Assembly: GCF_000732625.1 (NCBI RefSeq)
Contig: NZ_JPJI01000032.1
Span: 124,001-188,000, forward strand
DNA from: Nonlabens ulvanivorans
Lineage (GTDB): Bacteria; Bacteroidota; Bacteroidia; Flavobacteriales; Flavobacteriaceae
Length of the DNA stretch: 64,000 bases
Reading direction: 5' to 3'
Notes under the pieces: model-generated
The model's input: only the letters and a program-made list of their open reading frames with translations
Databases searched by the model: none
What the model was told of the DNA's origin: nothing
Shown: one piece after another, positions 13,267 to 43,194 of the stretch
Position numbering within the stretch: the stretch's first letter is position 1
Layout: every line of letters begins with the position of its first letter
Position numbers and translations under genes: made by a program

Positions 13267-14730
13267 ATGAAAAAAATTACTTTAATCTTAATGGCGTTAG
13301 TGTCATTTAATTTTGGATTTGCCCAATATCTTGAGGACTTCAATGGTGCAGGTGCAGCGTTCCCACCAGCAGGATGGGCTGTTTATGATGGCGCAAATGG
13401 ACTTGGTACTACTGTGCAATGGGCACAAGCTGGAACTGACCCAGAATTCCGTGCTCAATGTCTTTGGGAAGCTGTTACTGCCGGACAAACTGCAGAAGAT
13501 TGGATTGTATCTCCATTAATACCTATTAATGCTACACAAAATGTTTTATTGTTTGATGCTACAGATTTGAATCAAGGTGATTTTGGATCTGAGCTTTCAA
13601 TTAGAATCTCAACAACTTCTCAAACTGATACCACTTCATTTGTTGAAGTAGAAAATTTAACTGAAGCAGAATTAGGAAACAATGCATCTGCTGTATTTAC
13701 TTCATTCAATGTAAATCTAGCCGCTTATTTAAATCAAAGTGTTTATATCGCTTTTGTACACCTTCAAAATGATGGTGATGCAATTACTTTTGACAATGTT
13801 GAGGTAGTACAAGGTGCTGCAAATGCACCAGGACCGGCAACGACTCCAACACCTGCTGATATGGCTACTGGTGTAATCGTAGATACTAGTGATGCTGATG
13901 CTGACGGATCACCTGACAATTCAATTCTTTTTGCTTGGGCTCCTGATAATAGTCTTGGTTCTGTTGCACCAGATGAATATGAAATTCTTTTAGGAGACTC
14001 TCCTACAACATTAGTTTCTTTGGGTACTGCTCCAGCAACTATAACACTTCCGATTTCAATCAATGGATTCTTATATAACACAACATACTACTGGCAAGTA
14101 ATCCCTAAGAACACTGCAGGATCTGCGACTAACAACCCAGTATGGAGCTTTACAACAGAAGTAGGAAATGTAAATGCACCAGATGCAGTTACAACACCTA
14201 CACCAGCTGACATGGCAACTAATGTTGTAATCGATACTGCTAATAGTGACGCCGTTGCTTTTGCATGGACAGACGCTACTACAGGTGACGCACCAGAATC
14301 TTATGTTTTCTTATTAGGTGATAGCCCTACTACATTGAATACATTAGGTACTACTGCTAATGCTTCAGTAAACATTACAGGTATGCTTACAGGAACTACA
14401 TATTACTGGCAAGTACAACCTAGAAATGTAGGTGGAACGAATACTGCTGGGCCAGTATGGCAATTCACTACTGAAGGTACTGCATCTGTAGATGATCAAA
14501 TTGCAAACCTATTTACTTTGAGCCCTAACCCAGCAACAGATGTTTTAAACATCCAGATTGATGAGGTTATTACTAATGCTACAATTTACAATGGTCTAGG
14601 TCAAGTTATTTCTGAAAACGTTAAATCTAACAACAATCAAATTAACATCAACACATTAAGCGCTGGTCTTTACTTATTGAAATTAGATACTGATAACGGT
14701 TCTCAAACTGTACAATTTATCAAGAAGTAA
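13267..14730 (+). CDS. Secreted cleaved-adhesin-like protein with fibronectin-like repeats and T9SS sorting domain
   Basis: The start used is the ATG at 13267, because it opens directly into a signal peptide (MKKITLILMALVSFNFGFAQ); an ATG 60 bases upstream would add an unlikely extension. The mature protein begins with a choice-of-anchor/cleaved-adhesin-like domain (YLEDFNGAGAAFPPAGW, about 20-195). Two repeats of about 105 residues follow, each with TPTPADMAT and TTYYWQV.P.N; they are fibronectin-III-like. The end (about 412-487, NLFTLSPNPATDVLNIQ to LYLLKLDTDNGSQTVQFIKK) is a type A T9SS sorting domain. It is therefore exported through the outer membrane and attached to the cell surface or released. 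No catalytic domain is seen; a binding role is likely. Confidence 0.85.
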   Translation: MKKITLILMALVSFNFGFAQYLEDFNGAGAAFPPAGWAVYDGANGLGTTVQWAQAGTDPEFRAQCLWEAVTAGQTAEDWIVSPLIPINATQNVLLFDATDLNQGDFGSELSIRISTTSQTDTTSFVEVENLTEAELGNNASAVFTSFNVNLAAYLNQSVYIAFVHLQNDGDAITFDNVEVVQGAANAPGPATTPTPADMATGVIVDTSDADADGSPDNSILFAWAPDNSLGSVAPDEYEILLGDSPTTLVSLGTAPATITLPISINGFLYNTTYYWQVIPKNTAGSATNNPVWSFTTEVGNVNAPDAVTTPTPADMATNVVIDTANSDAVAFAWTDATTGDAPESYVFLLGDSPTTLNTLGTTANASVNITGMLTGTTYYWQVQPRNVGGTNTAGPVWQFTTEGTASVDDQIANLFTLSPNPATDVLNIQIDEVITNATIYNGLGQVISENVKSNNNQININTLSAGLYLLKLDTDNGSQTVQFIKK

Positions 14731-14751
14731 TTGATAAACATTAAAAAAAAT

Positions 14752-14783
14752 AAAACGGCCTTCAATTTGAAGGCCGTTTTTTT
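14752..14783 (+). terminator. Bidirectional terminator between convergent genes
   Basis: Stem AAAACGGCCTTC / GAAGGCCGTTTT with a 5-nt loop, flanked by A and T runs, 21 bases after the T9SS gene stop and 21 bases before the rlmN stop. Confidence 0.94.
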
Positions 14784-26022: not shown

Positions 26023-27105
26023 TTATTTATTAATTACTTTCTCTTGATGGTTGATAGATTCTTGATGAACCGCTTTAAAAACTCTAAGGATAAACTCTTC
26101 ACTTAAACCTTGTTCTTCACCAGCAAGAATCATTTTACCTAAAATCTCGTTCCATCTTTTAGATTGAAGAACTGCTACATTACGCTCTTTTTTTAAGGCT
26201 CCGATCGCATCAGCTGTTTTCATTCTTTTACCCAAAGTCTCAATAATATTGCTATCTATTACATCGATCTGCGCTCTTAAAACACCTAGTTTAGATTGAT
26301 ATCCTACCTCATCATCTTGTTCTTTTCTAATGCGTAAGTCTTGAAAAATTTGCAACAATGTTTCTGGAGTTACTTGCTGTGCCGCATCGCTCCATGCATT
26401 ATCAGGATCATAATGTGTTTCAATCATCAATCCATCATAATTAAGATCTAGTGCGGTTTGTGATACTTCAAAAATCATATCTCTCTTACCAGTAATATGG
26501 GATGGATCGCATATCAATGGAATATCTGGGAAACGTGTTTGAAAATCTACCGCAATTTGCCATTCAGGTATATTACGATATTTTGATTTTTCATAAGTAG
26601 AAAAACCTCTATGAATTACTCCTAGATTTTTAATATTAGCTGTATGAAATCGCTCAATCGCACCTATCCATAAAGCTAAATCTGGATTTACAGGATTTTT
26701 TACTAGCACCACTTTATCTGTTCCCTCTAAAGCATCTGCTATTTCTTGTACTATAAATGGACTTACTGTAGATCGTGCACCTATCCATAATAGATCGATG
26801 TCGTGTTCTAAAGCTAGTTCTACATGTGCTCTGTTAGCAACCTCTGTAGCAGTAAGCAAACCTGTTTCTGCTTTTGCTTTTTGCAACCATTTTAATCCTA
26901 TCGCTCCTACACCTTCAAAGTTTCCTGGTCGCGTTCTAGGTTTCCAGATACCTGCACGTAAATATGTTACGTCGCTGTCTTTAAGCTCATGTGCAATTCT
27001 TAATACCTGATCTTCAGTTTCTGCACTACAAGGTCCAGCAATCACTATAGGATGCTCTAGGTTGTGATTATCTAACCAAGTTCTAAATTCCTTTTTATTT
27101 TCCAT
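26023..27105 (-). CDS. Bifunctional 3-deoxy-7-phosphoheptulonate synthase / chorismate mutase
   Basis: The ATG at 27105 (MENKKEF) is taken as start; the frame is open two codons further only to a TTG. Residues 1-265 are a type I-beta DAHP synthase (PIVIAGPCSAE, RAGIWKPRTRPGNFEG, NPVNPDLALWIGAIERF, CDPSHITGKR). Residues 275-355 are an AroQ-type chorismate mutase (LGVLRAQIDVIDSNIIETLGKRMK, ALKKERNVAV, IHQE-like VHQESI). It thus catalyses the first step of the shikimate pathway and the branch to prephenate, a fusion typical of Bacteroidota in which the mutase domain also gives feedback control. It is the last gene of the aromatic operon and overlaps tyrA by 11 bases. Confidence 0.95.
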   Translation of the reverse strand: MENKKEFRTWLDNHNLEHPIVIAGPCSAETEDQVLRIAHELKDSDVTYLRAGIWKPRTRPGNFEGVGAIGLKWLQKAKAETGLLTATEVANRAHVELALEHDIDLLWIGARSTVSPFIVQEIADALEGTDKVVLVKNPVNPDLALWIGAIERFHTANIKNLGVIHRGFSTYEKSKYRNIPEWQIAVDFQTRFPDIPLICDPSHITGKRDMIFEVSQTALDLNYDGLMIETHYDPDNAWSDAAQQVTPETLLQIFQDLRIRKEQDDEVGYQSKLGVLRAQIDVIDSNIIETLGKRMKTADAIGALKKERNVAVLQSKRWNEILGKMILAGEEQGLSEEFILRVFKAVHQESINHQEKVINK

Positions 27106-27955
27106 TTTCAATTCCTTTCAATATCGTTTTTATTCTATTTGTTTCTTCCATATCTTGAAATATGGATTGGTGATCGTTATTTTTTACGCTTTCGCGAAAG
27201 CGAGATAAATTCTCAATATATCCATCTAGACTAGCTAGTACATTTTCCTTATTCTGTGCAAATATGGGTGTCCACATGGCTGGAGAACTTTTTGCTAATC
27301 GTACGGTGCTTTCAAAACCACTGCCCGCGAGGTCAAATATATCACGCTCGTTTTCTTCTTCTTGAATGACCGTTTTACCTAACATAAAGCTAGAGATATG
27401 AGACAAATGTGACACATAAGCAATATGTTTATCATGTGCCGCAGGCGTCATGTATCGCACTCTCATTTCCAGTTTCTCAAACAACTCATTTGCCAATTCT
27501 TGCAATTTAAAGGTGGTTTTCTCTACCTCACATATAATTAGCGTTTTTTTGACAAATAAATTTGAGATGGCAGCATCTGGTCCAGAAAATTCAGTTCCCG
27601 CAATAGGATGTGCCGCAAGAAACTGCCTCCTGTTTTTATGATTTTCGACACTTTTACATATTGCTTCTTTGGTAGAACCTACATCTATAATTAGTGCATG
27701 TTCATTTACTAAGTCGAGCACTTGAGGTAAAACTTTTAAGGTTGCATCTACGGGAATTGAAATGATAACCAAATCTGCATTTTTCAACTCTTGAAATTGT
27801 GCCACTTCATCTATAATACCATTTTGCTTTGCTTTTTCTACATGAGCATCATTGTGGTCAATACCATAAAAAATAGCCTGCGGATAATGAACACGCAAAT
27901 CTTTAAGTATGGATCCACCTATCAATCCAGTACCTATTAAATATACTTTTTTCAT
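27095..27955 (-). CDS. tyrA: Prephenate dehydrogenase
   Basis: 286 residues. An N-terminal Rossmann fold (VYLIGTGLIGGSILKDL) binds NAD(P) and an all-helical C-terminal domain carries the substrate site (AAHPIAGTEFSG with the catalytic His, and HISSFMLGK). It oxidatively decarboxylates prephenate to 4-hydroxyphenylpyruvate for tyrosine. The start overlaps the upstream aminotransferase stop by four bases. A palindrome copy in the gene encodes RFRES. The operon as a whole is preceded by an attenuator with a Phe/Tyr-rich leader peptide. Confidence 0.95.
   Translation of the reverse strand: MKKVYLIGTGLIGGSILKDLRVHYPQAIFYGIDHNDAHVEKAKQNGIIDEVAQFQELKNADLVIISIPVDATLKVLPQVLDLVNEHALIIDVGSTKEAICKSVENHKNRRQFLAAHPIAGTEFSGPDAAISNLFVKKTLIICEVEKTTFKLQELANELFEKLEMRVRYMTPAAHDKHIAYVSHLSHISSFMLGKTVIQEEENERDIFDLAGSGFESTVRLAKSSPAMWTPIFAQNKENVLASLDGYIENLSRFRESVKNNDHQSIFQDMEETNRIKTILKGIENGK
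27187..27202. repeat. Palindromic repeat, copy 6 (inside tyrA)
   Basis: Perfect 16-bp palindrome, read in the frame that encodes RFRES, the same frame as the copy in aroA. Confidence 0.95.
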
Positions 27956-29115
27956 GCCTCGACTTTTTTAGTAACTCTGTGAATCATTTCTTGTATTTTA
28001 TCTTCATTTACACAAAGTGAAAATCGCACATAACCTTCTCCATTCTTTCCAAAAATGCTTCCTGGTGCGATAAAAATATGGCTCTCATGTAGCAATTGAT
28101 CTACAAAAGCTTTGTCATCTGTCATTCCATTTGGCAACTTGCACCAAACGAATAAACCACCATTTTGTTCTTGAGGTTGTATCTCTAATTTTTCAGCTAG
28201 CTGTATGGTTAAATCTCTTCTAATTTTATAGATTCTATTTTGATTTTCTATCCATACATCACCAGTTTTTAATGCTGCAATGGCGCCTTTCTGAACACCG
28301 TAGAACATACCACTATCCATATTAGTTTTTACTTTAAGAACTTCTTTAAGTAAAGTACTTTTACCAGTAAGCATTCCTACTCTCCATCCAGGCATATTAA
28401 ATGTTTTGCTAATAGAGTTTAACTCTAGAACTACATCTTTTGAATGAGCTACTTGATGAACACTTATTTTCTCTTCATAACCTACACAACTATAAGGGTT
28501 ATCATTTACAAGCAATATCTCATGCTTTTTTGCAAAATGAATCAGTTTTTCAAACAACTCTTTTGAACCTGCAACGCTAGTAGGCATATGTGGATAATTG
28601 ACCCACATAATTTTTACTTTACTTAAATCAAGTAGTTCTAATTCTTCTAAATCAGGTAACCAATGATTCTCTTCTTTCAGAGCATATGTAACGGGCATAG
28701 CCTCACATAATCTAGTAGCGCTAGCATAAGTTGGATATCCAGGATCTGGAATTAAAACCGCATCTCCAGGATTAAGAAAAGCCATAGAAATATGTAAAAC
28801 ACCTTCTTTACTTCCCATCAACGGTATAATCTCCGATTCTGCATCTAGAGAAACACTATAATGCTTTTTATAGAACTGCGACATCGCTTCTCGCAGTTCT
28901 GGCAATCCTAAATAACTCTGGTAACCATGTGCTTTAGGATCCTGTAACGCAGCCGTTATTGCAGGTATAACCTGCTCAGGAGGAAGTAAATCTGGATTAC
29001 CTATTCCTGCATTAATGATAGGTTTTCCTTCTTCTAATAAAGATCTTACCTCACGCAGTTTAGTCGAAAAGTAATATTCTTGAACGCTATCAAGTCTCGT
29101 GGCTGCTTTTATCAT
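27952..29115 (-). CDS. PLP-dependent aminotransferase of the aromatic operon (class I/II)
   Basis: 387 residues, fold type I aminotransferase. Visible marks are NAGIGNPDLLPP, the cofactor region GSKEGVLHISMAFLNPGD, DPGYPTY, VNDNPYSCV, the PLP lysine in SISKTFNMPGWRVG and the C-terminal arginine in YVRFSLCV. Between pheA and tyrA its likely job is transamination of phenylpyruvate and 4-hydroxyphenylpyruvate to Phe and Tyr. By sequence alone it could equally be an aspartate-type or LL-DAP-like aminotransferase, so the role rests on context. It overlaps both neighbours by four bases. Confidence 0.88.
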   Translation of the reverse strand: MIKAATRLDSVQEYYFSTKLREVRSLLEEGKPIINAGIGNPDLLPPEQVIPAITAALQDPKAHGYQSYLGLPELREAMSQFYKKHYSVSLDAESEIIPLMGSKEGVLHISMAFLNPGDAVLIPDPGYPTYASATRLCEAMPVTYALKEENHWLPDLEELELLDLSKVKIMWVNYPHMPTSVAGSKELFEKLIHFAKKHEILLVNDNPYSCVGYEEKISVHQVAHSKDVVLELNSISKTFNMPGWRVGMLTGKSTLLKEVLKVKTNMDSGMFYGVQKGAIAALKTGDVWIENQNRIYKIRRDLTIQLAEKLEIQPQEQNGGLFVWCKLPNGMTDDKAFVDQLLHESHIFIAPGSIFGKNGEGYVRFSLCVNEDKIQEMIHRVTKKVEA

Positions 29116-29924
29116 AACGTGTGTGATTTATAAATTCCTAGGATTTTTAAAGATTCTACAAGAATGCCTATTTCTAATTGCGCTTCTTTAAATAACTGCA
29201 GATTTTTAAACTCAAGATCTGCAACAAAAGAGAATAGAAATGGCTTCTCAATGATCGGAATAGATTGAATTTTTGTAACATTCATATCTAGATCTCCCAA
29301 TTTGGTTAATATTTTTGCGAGACTACTAGGCTCATGATTAGCGGTAAAATTGATCGTCGCTTTATTAGCTTGTTCATCAATGATACTTTCCCTATTTACT
29401 ACCACAAACCTAGTCGCATTATTCCTTACTTCTTGAATATCTTTTGCAACCACATCTAGTTCATAAAAAGCAGCCGCTTGTGAAGATGCTATAGCAGCAA
29501 TTCCCATTTTGCTATCCCTTGCAATTCTTTGTGCGGCAGCTGCGGTATCATCAGTCTCAACCAACTTAATATGAGGATGCTTTCTGAAAAAAGATTGACA
29601 TTGTAGTAAAGCCATAGGATGGGACTGCACCTCAAAAATATCTTCAAAAACCTGACCTTTCTGAGCCATTAATTGGTGTTCTATATTTAAATAATACTCT
29701 GCTGTGATGCACAGATTTTGTTCCTTTATTAAATTATAATTAGGCAAGATGCTTCCTGCTATAGAGTTACCTATTGCCATTACACCAGTTTGAACGTGAC
29801 CAGTAGAAACAGCATTGACCAGCTGATCAAATGTGGAACATTCTAATAGCTCAACATTCCCATATAAAATAGACGCCACCTGATGATGATAAGAACCTTG
29901 AATCCCTTGTATTGCTACTTTCAT
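29112..29924 (-). CDS. pheA: Prephenate dehydratase
   Basis: 270 residues. A periplasmic-binding-protein-like catalytic region (about 1-180) contains the NNATRFVVV motif, with the catalytic Thr-Arg-Phe, and precedes an ACT regulatory domain (about 190-268: NHEPSSLAKILTKLGDLDMNVTKIQS) that senses Phe. It converts prephenate to phenylpyruvate. No chorismate mutase domain is fused to it; that activity is on the last gene of the operon. It is the first gene of a four-gene coupled operon. A terminator hairpin with a T run ends only 8 bases before its ATG, making this an attenuated operon. Confidence 0.95.
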   Translation of the reverse strand: MKVAIQGIQGSYHHQVASILYGNVELLECSTFDQLVNAVSTGHVQTGVMAIGNSIAGSILPNYNLIKEQNLCITAEYYLNIEHQLMAQKGQVFEDIFEVQSHPMALLQCQSFFRKHPHIKLVETDDTAAAAQRIARDSKMGIAAIASSQAAAFYELDVVAKDIQEVRNNATRFVVVNRESIIDEQANKATINFTANHEPSSLAKILTKLGDLDMNVTKIQSIPIIEKPFLFSFVADLEFKNLQLFKEAQLEIGILVESLKILGIYKSHTL

Positions 29925-29932
29925 TTAATTGT

Positions 29933-29963
29933 AAAAAAAAAGTCTTGATTAAATCAAGACTTT
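29933..29963 (-). terminator. Attenuator terminator of the aromatic amino acid operon
   Basis: On the minus strand a perfect AAAGTCTTGA / TCAAGACTTT stem with a 5-nt loop is followed by a run of T (nine in a row on that strand), then by the pheA start 8 bases on. No gene other than the leader peptide lies upstream, so this terminator must control read-through into pheA rather than end another gene. Confidence 0.88.
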
Positions 29964-29985
29964 ATTGTTAGTATATTTTAAATTT

Positions 29986-30054
29986 TCACAATACAGCCTT
30001 GTCTTCTATAAAATAGAAGTAAAATCCGTACCAGAAATAAGTTTTTGTGTTCAT
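29986..30054 (-). CDS. Phe/Tyr-rich leader peptide of the aromatic operon attenuator
   Basis: A 22-codon open frame: ATG at 30054, TGA at 29986-29988. Starting at residue 6 it encodes YFWYGFYFYF, that is four Tyr, four Phe and one Trp among ten residues, followed by IEDKAVL. It lies just upstream of the attenuator terminator and of pheA, whose operon makes Phe and Tyr. Within it the stretch CTTCTAT / ATAGAAG (30003-30019) can form a pause-type hairpin. AAGAC at its 3' side can pair with GTCTT in the terminator stem, though over only five bases. The arrangement is that of classic ribosome-mediated attenuation. It is too short for usual gene finding. Confidence 0.85.
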   Translation of the reverse strand: MNTKTYFWYGFYFYFIEDKAVL

Positions 30055-30063
30055 AATAGATGG

Positions 30064-30071
30064 CTAAAGTA
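30064..30071 (-). promoter_or_regulatory. Candidate -7 box of the aromatic operon promoter
   Basis: On the minus strand TACTTTAG resembles the Bacteroidota -7 consensus TAnnTTTG. It would place the transcript start only a few bases before the leader-peptide ATG. No convincing -33 box was found. Confidence 0.35.
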
Positions 30072-30263: not shown

Positions 30264-31175
30264 ATGTCTATAGAAGTTCAAAACATATCAAAAAATTACG
30301 GTAGCCAAAAGGCGCTCGATAAAATCAGTTTTTCTATTAAAAGCGGAGAAATTGTAGGTTTCCTAGGTCCTAATGGTGCCGGTAAATCCACCATGATGCG
30401 TATTTTAACGACTTACTTAAATCCGAATGAAGGTAGTGCTGCCGTTAATGGTCACGATATCTTAACGGCACAAAAAGAGGTTCAAGAATCTATAGGTTAT
30501 TTACCTGAGAGTAATCCGTTATATCCTGAAATGTATGTGCGTGAATATTTAGATTTTAGTGCTGGAGTCTACCACATTAAAGATGCTAAAAACCGTATTA
30601 CACAAGTTATAGAAGAAACTGGACTGACTTCTCACATAGGTAAAAAAATAAGCCAACTATCCAAAGGATACAAACAACGTGTAGGTCTTGCAAATGCGCT
30701 ATTACATCAACCTAAAGTACTGATCCTAGATGAACCTACTACTGGATTAGATCCTAATCAACTGGTTGAAATACGTCAACTTATTAAAAAAGTAGGTGCG
30801 CATACGACCATATTATTATCCACACACATCATGCAAGAAGTAGAAGCGATGTGCGATCGTGTGATTATTATCAATAAAGGTAAAATTGTTGCCGACGATT
30901 ATTTGAAGAACCTTAAAAGTGATGCCGCTCAAGTCATTGAGGTGGAGTTTGACTATAAAGTAGAACAAGAGTTATTGAATCGCATTACTAAAGTAAGAGA
31001 AGTAACTGATCTTGTCAAAGAACCTGGTTTCACATATTCTTTAAGATTTGAGACACAAGAAGATATGCGTAGTGCTGTTTTTGACTTTGCACATGATAAT
31101 GAGTTAAAAATCTTATCGCTTAATAAAAGAAATAAAAATCTTGAGACGATGTTTCAGGAGTTGACTGGTGAGTAG
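30264..31175 (+). CDS. gldA: Gliding-motility ABC transporter ATP-binding protein GldA
   Basis: 303 residues of an ABC ATPase: Walker A GPNGAGKST (35-43), Q-loop near ESIGYLPE, signature LSKGYKQR, Walker B VLILDEPT and the switch His in STHIMQE. Length and the C-terminal region (DNELKILSLNKRNKNLETMFQELTGE) match GldA, which with GldF and GldG forms an ABC transporter associated with flavobacterial gliding. GldF/GldG are not in this window, which is usual because gldA is often separate. The assignment to GldA rather than another ABC-2-type ATPase rests on overall likeness. Confidence 0.85.
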   Translation: MSIEVQNISKNYGSQKALDKISFSIKSGEIVGFLGPNGAGKSTMMRILTTYLNPNEGSAAVNGHDILTAQKEVQESIGYLPESNPLYPEMYVREYLDFSAGVYHIKDAKNRITQVIEETGLTSHIGKKISQLSKGYKQRVGLANALLHQPKVLILDEPTTGLDPNQLVEIRQLIKKVGAHTTILLSTHIMQEVEAMCDRVIIINKGKIVADDYLKNLKSDAAQVIEVEFDYKVEQELLNRITKVREVTDLVKEPGFTYSLRFETQEDMRSAVFDFAHDNELKILSLNKRNKNLETMFQELTGE

Positions 31176-39027: not shown

Positions 39028-40017
39028 TTAAGCGCACTTTTTCACAAGCGCAATAGGTTCAATTTCTTTTAGATATTTTTTTAATATTTCCTCTACTTGT
39101 ATGTGCTCTATTAAAAAGGCATCATGACCGTGAATACTATCTATTTCTTGGTACTCTATATCTCTATAATTATTTAATAAGTCAAAAGTTTCGCGATCCT
39201 CTAGGGCTGTAAAAAGACCATCGCTATTAATAGCTATTAACCTAATTTTTACTTCACTATTTGCAATAGCCTTTGATATGTTATCATCGTTATTTGTAGC
39301 AGCATTTGTAGTGGCTAGTAATTGATTCAACAACTTATAAGCTGGCAGCGTAAATCGCTCTTTAAGACTTTTACCATGATAATTCAACCACAACCTCACT
39401 TTAAAATCAGTTGTTATTTCTCTATTAAATTTATACCTTAGGCTTTGTGGAGTTCTATAAAATGTCATAGCATGCTGTCTCGCATCCTCTATCGGGTGAG
39501 TTGAATTTGAGAGCAGTCGTTCTTGAATATGACAGTTTGCAATGACCCAGTCTGTTGCTTTCCAATCTGCCGCGATAGGAATAATAGTACCGAATAATTC
39601 TGGATAAGACACTGCCATTTCCCAAAGTAAACAACCTCCTATACTACCACCGATGCCTGCATGAATGTAACATACTCTTAGCTCACTTAAAACCTGATAA
39701 AAAATACAAGCGACGTCATTTAATCGCCAGTCTTGATAATTATAAATCAAGTGCTCTACTTCTTCATCAAATCCATTTCCCGGTATATTGATAGAAATAA
39801 CGGTATACCGACTAGTATCAACTACTTTCCCTGAACCTACAATCTCTGACCACCAATCAATTACCGAAGAATTACCAGTTAATGCATGGTTAATCAATAT
39901 TATGGGTGCCGTGTGTAATTGACACCCAAAAATTTGATAATTTACATGAACTGTTTGTGCTTTACCAATGCTTAATTTAAAATCTGGTAATTCTATATGG
40001 TTTAAAGAACCACTCAT
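39028..40017 (-). CDS. metX: Homoserine O-acetyltransferase family alpha/beta hydrolase
   Basis: 329 residues with the alpha/beta hydrolase fold of MetX: ILINHALTGNS near residue 45 (oxyanion region), the nucleophile elbow GIGGSIGGCLLWEMA with Ser125, then the acid in AINSDGLFT and the catalytic His in HGHDAFLIE near the C-terminus. It activates homoserine by acetylation (or succinylation) before sulfhydrylation by MetY. It is a little shorter than typical MetX (350-380 residues), lacking part of the lid. It overlaps the metY stop by one base and precedes hom. Confidence 0.85.
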   Translation of the reverse strand: MSGSLNHIELPDFKLSIGKAQTVHVNYQIFGCQLHTAPIILINHALTGNSSVIDWWSEIVGSGKVVDTSRYTVISINIPGNGFDEEVEHLIYNYQDWRLNDVACIFYQVLSELRVCYIHAGIGGSIGGCLLWEMAVSYPELFGTIIPIAADWKATDWVIANCHIQERLLSNSTHPIEDARQHAMTFYRTPQSLRYKFNREITTDFKVRLWLNYHGKSLKERFTLPAYKLLNQLLATTNAATNNDDNISKAIANSEVKIRLIAINSDGLFTALEDRETFDLLNNYRDIEYQEIDSIHGHDAFLIEHIQVEEILKKYLKEIEPIALVKKCA

Positions 40018-41309
40018 TATATCAATACTGATTTATCGATAGTAGAAAAAGCTTCTTCCAGGTCTTTTTTAAGATCTGATATATCTTCTAACCCAACAGA
40101 TAGACGTATTAAATCTTTAGTTACCCCAGTACTTAATTGAGACTCATCATCAAGTTGCTGGTGTGTCGTACTCGCAGGATGAATAATTAATGATTTAGTA
40201 TCTCCTATGTTAGCTAATAAAGAGAAAACTTTAGCACTATCAACAATCTTTTTAGCACTTTCATATCCACCTTTCACCCCAAATGTTACAATTCCGCTTT
40301 GTCCATTTGGTAAGTATTGTTGAGCGAGTTTATAGTAAGCATTATCCTCAAGCCCTGGATAATTCACCCATTCTACTTCATCTCTATCTCTTAACCATTT
40401 TGCTAATTCTAGTGCATTTTGACTATGTTTCTCAATCCTTAAATTCAATGTTTCTAAACCTTGAATAATTTGCCATGCATTAAATGGTGAAATTGCTCCA
40501 CCTAAATCGCGTAATCCCTCTATACGCACTTTGGCAATAAAACTTGCTTCTTTTAACACATCTGCATATACTAGACCGTGGTAACCGGCACTAGGTTCTG
40601 TAAATTCTGGAAATTTCCCATTAGTCCAGTCAAATTTTCCGGCATCGATAATTACACCACCTAGAGCGGTTCCGTTTCCGTTAATATATTTAGTCAACGA
40701 GTGAATGACGATATCTGCTCCGTGAGCAATAGGATTTAATAGATAAGGAGTTGCTACGGTATTATCAACGATAAATGGCACACGAGCTTTAGTAGCTTGT
40801 GCACTTATCTTTTTTAAATCTAATACATCAAGTTTAGGATTCCCTAGAGATTCAACAAATACAGCTCTTGTGTTTTCTTGTAATGCATTTGTGAAAGCGT
40901 CATCCTCGTTAGGATCTACAAAAGTGGTGGTAATACCGAATCGAGGTAAGGTAACCGAAAGTAAATTGTAAGTACCACCGTAAAGAGAGCTGCTAGCTAT
41001 AATATGATCTCCTGCCCTTAACAAGGTTAATAAAGTTGTTGAGATGGCGCTGGTTCCTGATGCTGTGGCTACCGCAGCAATACCACCTTCTAAAGCCGCA
41101 AGTCGTTGCTCTAGAACGTCTACCGTAGGATTATTAATTCTGGTATAGATATAACCTGGCTCTGATAGTGAGAACAAATTTGCTGCATGATCACTATCGT
41201 TAAACACGTATGCTGTGCTTTGATATAGAGGTACCGCTCTAGTTCCACCATTGTTTTTAAAGTCATGACCTGCATGAAGTGCGTTTGTTGAAAATTTTTG
41301 ATTTGACAT
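40017..41309 (-). CDS. metY: O-acetylhomoserine aminocarboxypropyltransferase (sulfhydrylase)
   Basis: 430 residues, Cys/Met metabolism PLP enzyme. The PLP lysine lies in VIHSLTKYINGNGTALGG, with YTRINNPTVDVLEQRLAALEGG at the N-terminal cofactor loop and LIIHPASTTHQQLD with SVGLEDISDLKKDLEEAF at the C-terminus. The length above 420 residues favours the MetY group over MetB/MetC. It makes homocysteine from O-acetylhomoserine and sulfide. First gene of metY-metX-hom and preceded by a SAM-I riboswitch that would shut the operon when SAM is plentiful. Confidence 0.92.
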   Translation of the reverse strand: MSNQKFSTNALHAGHDFKNNGGTRAVPLYQSTAYVFNDSDHAANLFSLSEPGYIYTRINNPTVDVLEQRLAALEGGIAAVATASGTSAISTTLLTLLRAGDHIIASSSLYGGTYNLLSVTLPRFGITTTFVDPNEDDAFTNALQENTRAVFVESLGNPKLDVLDLKKISAQATKARVPFIVDNTVATPYLLNPIAHGADIVIHSLTKYINGNGTALGGVIIDAGKFDWTNGKFPEFTEPSAGYHGLVYADVLKEASFIAKVRIEGLRDLGGAISPFNAWQIIQGLETLNLRIEKHSQNALELAKWLRDRDEVEWVNYPGLEDNAYYKLAQQYLPNGQSGIVTFGVKGGYESAKKIVDSAKVFSLLANIGDTKSLIIHPASTTHQQLDDESQLSTGVTKDLIRLSVGLEDISDLKKDLEEAFSTIDKSVLI

Positions 41310-41436
41310 TTTGTTTCTTTTTAAATTAAAAATTGATTTAAGAACAAAACCAAATTGAAAAGTACTTCCTGTCCAGACTTAAAGCCTAGATAGAAAATCA
41401 AAAAAGAAACTTGTTAGTATAACCTACTTACATGTG

Positions 41437-41540
41437 TATCATCTCGTCTCAAATTAATGAGCAGAATGTAGCACCTTCTTAACGAGTGTTAAGGGTTGCT
41501 AAGGAGTCGATGGGTCTGTTCCCTCGTCCTTTCTTGATAA
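41437..41540 (-). ncRNA. SAM-I riboswitch (S-box) upstream of metY
   Basis: Reading the minus strand, TTATCAAGAAAGGACGAGGG, then ACAGACCC, then AGCAACC, then GAAGGTGCTACATTC, then GATGATA follow in the order and spacing of the S-box aptamer. The 5' and 3' ends pair (TATCA with TGATA) as helix P1. It lies about 130 bases upstream of the metY start on the same strand, the classic place. No obvious terminator follows, so control may be at translation or through a structure I did not resolve. Confidence 0.93.
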
Positions 41541-41759
41541 TTTCAATATGGTTATGAACGTGAGTGTAAAGATTCATAAAACTTTTTGAGACTACCAAAC
41601 TTTTTACAAAATAAATTCCTACTAATATAGTAGGAATTAGATATAATAAACTGAATTACAAATTTTTACAGCAAACGTTAAAATTAAAAGCAATCACTAA
41701 ACTCTATGAGAATAGTTAATAAAGCTATAATAACAATGCTCACATAGCGCTCATTTTAT

Positions 41760-41767: not shown

Positions 41768-41777
41768 CACTTCAATT

Positions 41778-41840
41778 AGGGGAAAGATTTGGCTGCTTGC
41801 GACCTCGTTTTCATGTTCGAAAACATAAACGCTAAAACAG
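41778..41840 (+). ncRNA. SAM-II riboswitch upstream of metK
   Basis: The pattern follows the SAM-II aptamer. GGGG (P1, 41779-41782) is followed by AAAGATTT, CTG, CTTGCGA, the P1 partner CCTC (41803-41806), an extra 6-bp hairpin GTTTTC / GAAAAC (41807-41824), then ATAAAC and GCTAAAACAG. The CTG at 41793-41795 can pair with the final CAG as the pseudoknot helix, where the known Agrobacterium element has CC with GG, i.e. a compensated change. It lies 98 bases upstream of metK. Beyond it, GGCTG (41791) can alternatively pair with CAGCC (41860) and CTCG (41804) with CGAG (41852), ahead of TTTTT. That stem is a possible expression platform, but the direction of control is uncertain. Confidence 0.82.
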
Positions 41841-41910
41841 TGTACCGCACTCGAGCATACAGCCCTTTTTATCTTCTATAATTATTAATGTCGAGAGCGA
41901 TTTTTAATTT

Positions 41911-41937: not shown

Positions 41938-43194
41938 ATGCCATATTTATTTACAAGTGAGTCCGTAAGTGAAGGACATCCAGATAAAGTTGCTGATCAA
42001 ATCAGTGATGCCTTATTAGATAATTTTTTAGCCTTTGATCCAGAATCCAAAGTAGCCTGTGAAACTATGGTTACGACTGGTCAAGTTATACTTGCCGGTG
42101 AGGTAAAATCAAACACCTACATAGACGCACAACACATTGCTCGTGAAGTGGTTAACAAGATAGGTTATACCAAGGGCGCTTACCAGTTTAGCGGCGATTC
42201 TTGTGGTGTAATTTCTTTAATCCATGAACAATCACAAGATATTAATCAAGGTGTTGATCGTGAAAACAAAGAAGAACAAGGTGCAGGAGATCAGGGAATG
42301 ATGTTCGGTTATGCAACGGCAGAGACGGATAATTATATGCCACTAGCCTTAGATATTTCTCATAAAATACTTATCGAGCTGGCAAAATTGCGTCGTGAAA
42401 TGGATCAGATTACTTACTTGCGTCCTGATGCAAAATCACAGGTAACTATTGAGTATAATGATGATAACATACCGCAACGTATAGATGCAATTGTTATTTC
42501 TACACAACACGATCCTTTTAATGAAGATGATGATGCGATGCTTGCACAGATTAAAAAAGATCTTGTTGAAATTTTAATTCCTAGAGTTATTGAGCAATTA
42601 CCAGCATATGCTCAAAAACTTTTTAATGACAAAATCACTTACCACATTAACCCAACTGGGAAATTTGTAATAGGTGGACCGCATGGAGATACTGGACTTA
42701 CAGGTCGTAAAATTATAGTAGATACTTATGGTGGTAAAGGTGCTCACGGTGGTGGAGCATTCTCAGGTAAAGATCCTTCTAAGGTAGATCGTAGTGCCGC
42801 TTATGCTTCGCGTCACGTGGCAAAAAACCTAGTTGCGGCTGGCCTAGCAACTGAAGTTTTAGTGCAGGTTTCTTATGCCATAGGTGTGGTAGAACCTACT
42901 TCTATACACGTAGATACTTATGGAACATCAACTGTAGATTTAACCGATGGAGAAATCTCTAGAAAGGTTGCTCAAATCTTTGATATGCGTCCTGCTGCGA
43001 TAGAAAGTAGATTAAAATTAAGAAATCCTATCTATTCTGAAACGGCTGCTTATGGTCATATGGGTCGTGAGCCTCGTACAGAAACACTAGTTTTTGAATC
43101 ACCGTATAATGGTCGTGTAGAAAAAACCGTAGAGTTATTTACATGGGAAAAATTAGATTATGTGGACGATGTAAAGAAAGCTTTTTCTTTATAG
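41938..43194 (+). CDS. metK: S-adenosylmethionine synthetase
   Basis: 418 residues with all family marks: [25 protein letters not shown] at the N-terminus, [24 protein letters not shown] (the GAGDQG loop over the active site), [24 protein letters not shown] and [19 protein letters not shown]. It makes SAM from methionine and ATP in the cytosol. The protein is slightly longer than the E. coli enzyme, as usual for Bacteroidota. It is the only gene of its transcript, controlled by a SAM-II riboswitch and closed by a strong terminator. Confidence 0.98.

Follow-up and report, generated by a model that had tools for sequence, protein, structure and literature searches.

In the 64-kb window, the whole stretch of DNA analysed here, a four-gene operon headed by pheA is preceded by a leader that we take, with a probability of about 0.93, to be a ribosome-mediated (leader-peptide) transcription attenuator of this phenylalanine and tyrosine operon, and that very probably turns the operon on when phenylalanine or tyrosine runs short. 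The leader contains a short ORF rich in aromatic codons, an intrinsic terminator and alternative RNA pairings (Table 1). These features are conserved among relatives, as is a geometry that suits a translating ribosome, and from them we infer translation of the ORF, ribosome stalling and the regulatory response.

The leader ORF encodes the peptide MNTKTYFWYGFYFYFIEDKAVL, with nine aromatic residues within positions 6-15; the 22-codon minus-strand ORF with an aromatic run reported in the first-pass annotation is indeed present. Among the ATG ORFs of 8-60 amino acids in the window, it alone has 8 or more aromatic residues within 10 positions, and 60 shuffled windows yielded a mean of 0.03 such ORFs. 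The nearest named relatives of the pheA product belong to Nonlabens (70-72% identity). A candidate promoter element of the -7-like type, TACTTTAG, precedes the ORF. It is weak, having one mismatch to TAnnTTTG, which we take to be the consensus of the Bacteroidota -7-like element, and another site scored equally in the scan. Among the 83 leaders scored (see below), a perfect TAnnTTTG lies no more than 60 nt upstream in 41, compared with a shuffle mean of 5.8.

Table 1. Features of the pheA leader, its operon and its surroundings in the window
Feature	Position	Strand	Remarks
DAHP synthase fused to chorismate mutase	26023..27111	-	PF00793 and PF01817
tyrA, prephenate dehydrogenase	27095..27955	-	NF006307 above cut-off; also supported by Pfam-type search
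Class I/II aminotransferase	27952..29115	-	PF00155
pheA, prephenate dehydratase	29112..29924	-	heads the operon; ATG at 29924; PF00800, E 5.2e-55; best NCBIfam model below cut-off
Intrinsic terminator 3:4 and T tract	29933..29963	-	stem 29963-29939, 11 pairs
Element 3	29955..29968	-	antiterminator 3' strand and terminator 5' arm
Leader peptide ORF, 22 codons	29986..30054	-	control codons 6-15; conserved in relatives
Element 2	29988..30001	-	antiterminator 5' strand; overlaps codons 18-23
Upper hairpin CTTCTAT/ATAGAAG	30003..30019	-	top of hairpin 1:2; by folding
Element 1	30026..30037	-	inside codons 6-10 (Y F W Y G); sequesters element 2 by pairing with 29984-29996
-7-like promoter element	30064..30071	-	by eye; one mismatch; 9 nt before leader ATG
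gldA	30264..31175	+	divergent neighbour upstream of leader; TIGR03522 above cut-off
Palindrome CGCTTTCGCGAAAGCG	300, 7689, 12011, 19036, 24590, 27187, 30203, 34466, 35635, 41911, 44722, 49326, 51332, 55780, 59402

The predicted fold of the 123-nt leader combines hairpin 1:2 with terminator 3:4 and has an energy of -24.8 kcal/mol, against a shuffle mean of -14.0 kcal/mol, with 0 of 200 shuffles as low. The terminator agrees with the earlier description of a stem and a T run, and its T tract extends to 29933, 8 nt ahead of the pheA start codon. The hairpin CTTCTAT/ATAGAAG that had been placed over the aromatic codons also exists; it is not the whole structure, only the top of the larger hairpin 1:2, whose lower stem lies beneath it and overlaps the antiterminator strand. 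However, the antiterminator originally proposed, AAGAC:GTCTT, lacks conservation within the genus and was rejected in favour of a longer, conserved pairing of 30001-29988 with 29968-29955. This helix 2:3 comprises 13 bp, formed by 7 pairs, one mismatch and 6 pairs, and the shortness of a five-base antiterminator, which had been regarded as the weak point of the proposal, thereby ceases to be a difficulty. The antiterminator duplex has a free energy of -14.5 kcal/mol, a value attained by 1 of 200 shuffles, and in a 57-nt context it folds at -12.3 kcal/mol (0 of 200 shuffles as good).

The position of the ORF bears on whether it serves translation of pheA rather than transcription. Leader genes close to start codons can boost translation through reinitiation, and the distances associated with reinitiation in Bacteroidetes peak at 11-14 bp, according to the part of PMC4833913 consulted, which lends some plausibility to a role of the ORF in translational coupling at pheA in place of attenuation. 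However, 61 nt, terminator included, separate the stop codon of the leader from the start of pheA, and we consider coupling extremely improbable.

The geometry of the ribosome on the leader fits attenuation. A footprint extending 15 nt in both directions from the first P-site base was assumed, and stall values were averaged over the aromatic codons. With a stalled ribosome, 80% or more of the element 2 core remains exposed in all 83 leaders (mean 98%). Once the ribosome has reached the stop codon, it covers 80% or more of that core in 63 of the 83, and in the window it covers the whole core. In 13 of the 83, less than half of the core is masked by the ribosome at the stop, because the stop codon lies too far downstream. 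Under the attenuation model, RNA polymerase would start just upstream and a ribosome would translate the leader. When tRNA-Phe and tRNA-Tyr are charged, the ribosome would pass codons 6-15, reach the stop codon and cover element 2, allowing terminator 3:4 to form and ending transcription before pheA. When tRNA-Phe or tRNA-Tyr is uncharged (or perhaps tRNA-Trp, for which there is one codon), the ribosome would stall within the run, cover element 1 and free element 2 to pair with element 3, whereupon the terminator would be blocked and the four genes expressed.

Comparative analysis was carried out on 83 leaders, namely 45 leaders dereplicated from 83 at 0.90 similarity and aligned with MAFFT (alignment A1), and 38 further leaders from a phylum-wide sample that were chosen for a terminator energy below -8 kcal/mol, 7 or more aromatic residues within 12 positions and a locus number of L143 or lower. 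Two loci at contig ends (L197 and L210) were kept outside the leader analysis, and L098 offers only 13 nt of upstream sequence. The leaders were selected for an abundance of F, Y or W residues over 12 positions rather than for Phe plus Tyr, and Phe and Tyr codons both occur in 83/83 ORFs; a Trp codon occurs in 41/83 and in all 12 distinct leader versions of the genus. Helices 2:3 and 3:4 covary. For terminator 3:4, 96.7% of the cells in A1 pair, compared with at most 61.0% when the strands are slid, and double changes occur at 7 of 10 pairs. For the 2:3 core, 78.4% of cells pair versus 23-48% when slid (at most 48.4%), double changes occur at 5 of 7 pairs, and the covariation score is higher than in any of 500 shuffles; of the five measures, two fail to exceed the shuffles, 178 and 192 of 500 reaching them. 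Some rows of A1 (e.g., L065, L067-L069, L011 and L044) look out of register, which lowers the 2:3 pairing percentage. Leader by leader, the antiterminator duplex is matched by no more than 10 of 200 shuffles in 82 of the 83 leaders from which A1 was dereplicated. In partner swaps across the 83 leaders, own partners paired better than swapped ones both for 2:3 (-17.0 vs -10.8 kcal/mol) and for 1:2 (-17.3 vs -12.3 kcal/mol), with 0 of 5000 permutations as low in either case. Individually, hairpin 1:2 is weaker: folded alone, it beats shuffles at the 5% level in 18 of 45 leaders (window, 0/200), and against synonymous-codon shuffles it is significant in 29 of 83 but not in the window (34/200), which leaves it less certain than the other two pairings. 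An RNA polymerase pause site after hairpin 1:2 was considered and set aside as a conserved feature. The pattern TGYG, which we take to represent the pause consensus, follows the hairpin in 22% of the 83 leaders versus 14% in shuffles (sd 3.6), and a looser TG pattern in 55% versus 39% (sd 4.6), a slight excess for which the antiterminator pairing could also be responsible.

The leader is widespread among relatives and is placed ahead of the first gene of the operon, whichever gene this is. Alignment of the region upstream of pheA, which the first-pass annotation had proposed as a check, revealed a conserved aromatic run along with the covarying stems, and no close relative lacked the ORF or its aromatic codons, the outcome named in advance as speaking against attenuation: all 16 relatives of the genus with enough upstream DNA carry the leader, the sequence of L098 being too short. 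Together with the codons, terminator and antiterminator found across the 83 leaders, these comparisons lend strong support to the original proposal of ribosome-mediated attenuation before pheA. Among 80 related loci encoding a pheA relative, the leader precedes the first operon gene in 72, whereas 5 are without an intact leader and 3 have too little upstream sequence. It lies directly before pheA in 67, and its absence there in the other 13 is mostly apparent, as DAHP synthase precedes pheA in 8 of them. In five of these eight (L056, L057, L062, L063 and L066), all those with enough upstream DNA, the leader lies before DAHP synthase; the sequences of L048, L055 and L060 end 64-72 nt upstream. 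Three more DAHP synthase-first genomes, all of one genus, likewise carry it before DAHP synthase with a terminator of -19.3 kcal/mol, giving 8/8 for DAHP synthase-headed operons with enough upstream DNA. The sequence of another such locus, L235, ends 262 nt upstream, and a terminator-like stem is visible there. No leader was found at L047, L052, L074 and L080 of the 80 loci, and L079 has an aromatic run but no stop codon before pheA (judged by eye).

In a phylum-wide sample, a pheA match occurs in a further 44 genomes belonging to the same class, and the leader ORF was present in all 41 examined, preceding DAHP synthase rather than pheA in 3; three genomes of the same class or order with a distant pheA (G034, G117 and G212) are outside this count. 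A terminator was computed by script in 40 of the 41, and the stem of the remaining one (L139, -10.0 kcal/mol) was picked by eye. Outside the class, 28 of 127 pheA-matching genomes, a non-random choice, were examined; 4 carry the leader (L123, L141, L142 and L143) and the other 24 showed none. The four, whose pheA is Bacteroidia-like, are those with the most similar pheA proteins, and the attenuated operon was possibly transferred to them in its entirety. An Ignavibacteria locus (L070) also carries the leader. Within the genus, three genomes that are each at least 99% complete (G008, G012 and G019) have no pheA match and are perhaps auxotrophs.

This distribution also bears on whether the terminator merely ends upstream transcription or acts as a constitutive roadblock, with the ORF an accident of A/T-rich DNA. 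Such DNA readily yields Phe and Tyr codons, and the window contains three ATG ORFs of 8-60 amino acids with 6 or more aromatic residues in 10. However, the upstream gene gldA is divergent, so the terminator serves no co-directional gene upstream and belongs to the leader of the pheA operon. In addition, the combination of ORF and terminator is found again in the 41 genomes of the class that were examined, the pairings covary and the unit follows the head of the operon, all of which leave an accident or roadblock with very little credibility.

The window leader is a single unit, whereas two groups of relatives often carry two in series. In one genus (g21 of family f9; L121, L127, L184-L196 and L198-L209), two units occur in 20 of 27 loci and one in 7, each unit consisting of a Phe/Tyr ORF and a terminator, and the antiterminator is reached by no more than 5 of 100 shuffles in 35 of 47 units. 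Of 27 loci in family f5, 14 were assigned two units and 10 a single unit by the counting rule, and the remaining three, namely L228, the DAHP synthase-first L235 and L238, which has only 226 nt upstream, were assigned none. We judged 12 of the 14 tandems credible (L213, L214, L216-L222, L226, L230 and L231) and rejected L225 and L234, in each of which one unit shows no antiterminator (reached by 54 and 86 of 100 shuffles). The antiterminator test was applicable to 23 of the 24 units in these 12 tandems, and in 16 of them no more than 5 of 100 shuffles reach the antiterminator; the second unit of L226 was retained although 25 of 100 shuffles reach its antiterminator. Both units contain Phe and Tyr codons in all 32 tandems. 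A tentative reading, to which we give somewhat less than even odds, is that the leader acts as an OR gate for any aromatic amino acid: a stall at Phe, Tyr or (in 41/83 leaders) Trp codons would open an operon that includes DAHP synthase, and the two groups would apply the gate twice in series. If so, serial gates would multiply two termination probabilities and produce a steeper, tighter switch, and the tandem would constitute a pair of leader-peptide attenuators for the same signal. In the Salmonella mgtCBR operon, two leader ORFs likewise share one mRNA leader; however, as far as the consulted part of PMC3641672 describes, they respond to different signals (ATP and proline), unlike the tandems here with Phe and Tyr codons in both units.

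Attenuators of amino-acid genes are often riboswitches, T-boxes or protein-bound elements, and a device of this kind with an incidental ORF would be an alternative before pheA. However, Rfam searches placed no family on the window leader up to an E-value of 10, nor on the leaders of 18 related loci at the gathering score. Such a device is also hard to reconcile with the retention of Phe and Tyr codons throughout the scored leaders and with comparable leaders elsewhere in the genome, and we regard it as very unlikely. The peptide MRNTNHTWWWNDTAQQP, containing WWW, and a terminator precede a trpE-like gene (L177; the gene scores 412 bits with TIGR00564, whose cut-off of 517.7 it does not reach), and MKTQNAHHHHLFTYRQAS, containing HHHH, and a terminator precede hisG (L180). 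Leader-peptide attenuation thus seems to be a general device in this genome. Of 9 matches to the FYFYF pattern in the genome, only the one at pheA combines a short ORF with a terminator (by eye), and a genome search for ilvD gave zero matches.

Two SAM-related riboswitches lie elsewhere in the window, back to back with about 230 nt between them: a SAM (S-box) riboswitch at 41436-41543 (minus strand) ahead of a PLP sulfhydrylase-like gene (40017-41309, minus strand), and a SAM-II riboswitch at 41773-41845 (plus strand) ahead of a metK-like gene (41938-43194, plus strand), the gene names being assigned by eye from translations. In addition, the palindrome listed in Table 1 occurs in 15 copies with at most one mismatch (0.00 in shuffles), within genes (e.g., at 27187, in tyrA) as well as between them. 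The 14-mer GCTTTCGCGAAAGC has 566 copies in the 3.21-Mb genome, compared with 0 for a reversed control. Cyanobacteria possess a highly iterated palindrome, which the present one resembles in occurring both inside and between genes.

The predicted mode of control is classical leader-peptide attenuation, an already known kind. In Proteobacteria, the pheL leader (Phe_leader) encodes a peptide rich in the regulated amino acid and forms alternative hairpins with a terminator before pheA, all of which resemble the present leader. However, the leader described here mixes Phe and Tyr codons and its operon joins pheA, tyrA and DAHP synthase, and the Phe_leader model (RF01859) does not match it even at an E-value of 10; the model gives only a sub-threshold hit away from the leader, at 14700-14783 of the window (26.3 bits; the gathering score is 55). 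Bacteroid-trp is a leader of trp genes and a cis-regulatory RNA of the same phylum, whereas the present leader has Phe/Tyr codons and a different operon. The Bacteroid-trp model (RF01692) has no match in this genome at an E-value of 0.001, none in the window and none at the WWW leader L177. In the part of PMC2864571 consulted, table 1 lists Bacteroid-trp as a Bacteroidetes cis-regulatory candidate. Ryan et al. 2020 (PMC7366714) describe short ORFs in B. thetaiotaomicron that are reminiscent of attenuation leader peptides; the accessible main text makes no mention of pheA. A prior report of this leader was not found in the accessible open-licence PMC literature, and the survey of Lopatovskaya et al. 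2010 (cited in PMC4833913) may list it. Subject to the priority of that survey, the class-wide spread of the leader, its placement before whichever gene heads the operon and its same-signal tandems may be unreported, as far as the open-licence PMC literature searched extends.

Collectively, these analyses suggest that trp-type attenuation is one of the principal means by which aromatic amino acid synthesis is controlled in much of the class Bacteroidia. The covarying RNA family could be added to Rfam and help to annotate leader ORFs. In addition, it makes testable how a single leader would integrate two or three amino acids and what would be gained from two attenuators in series.
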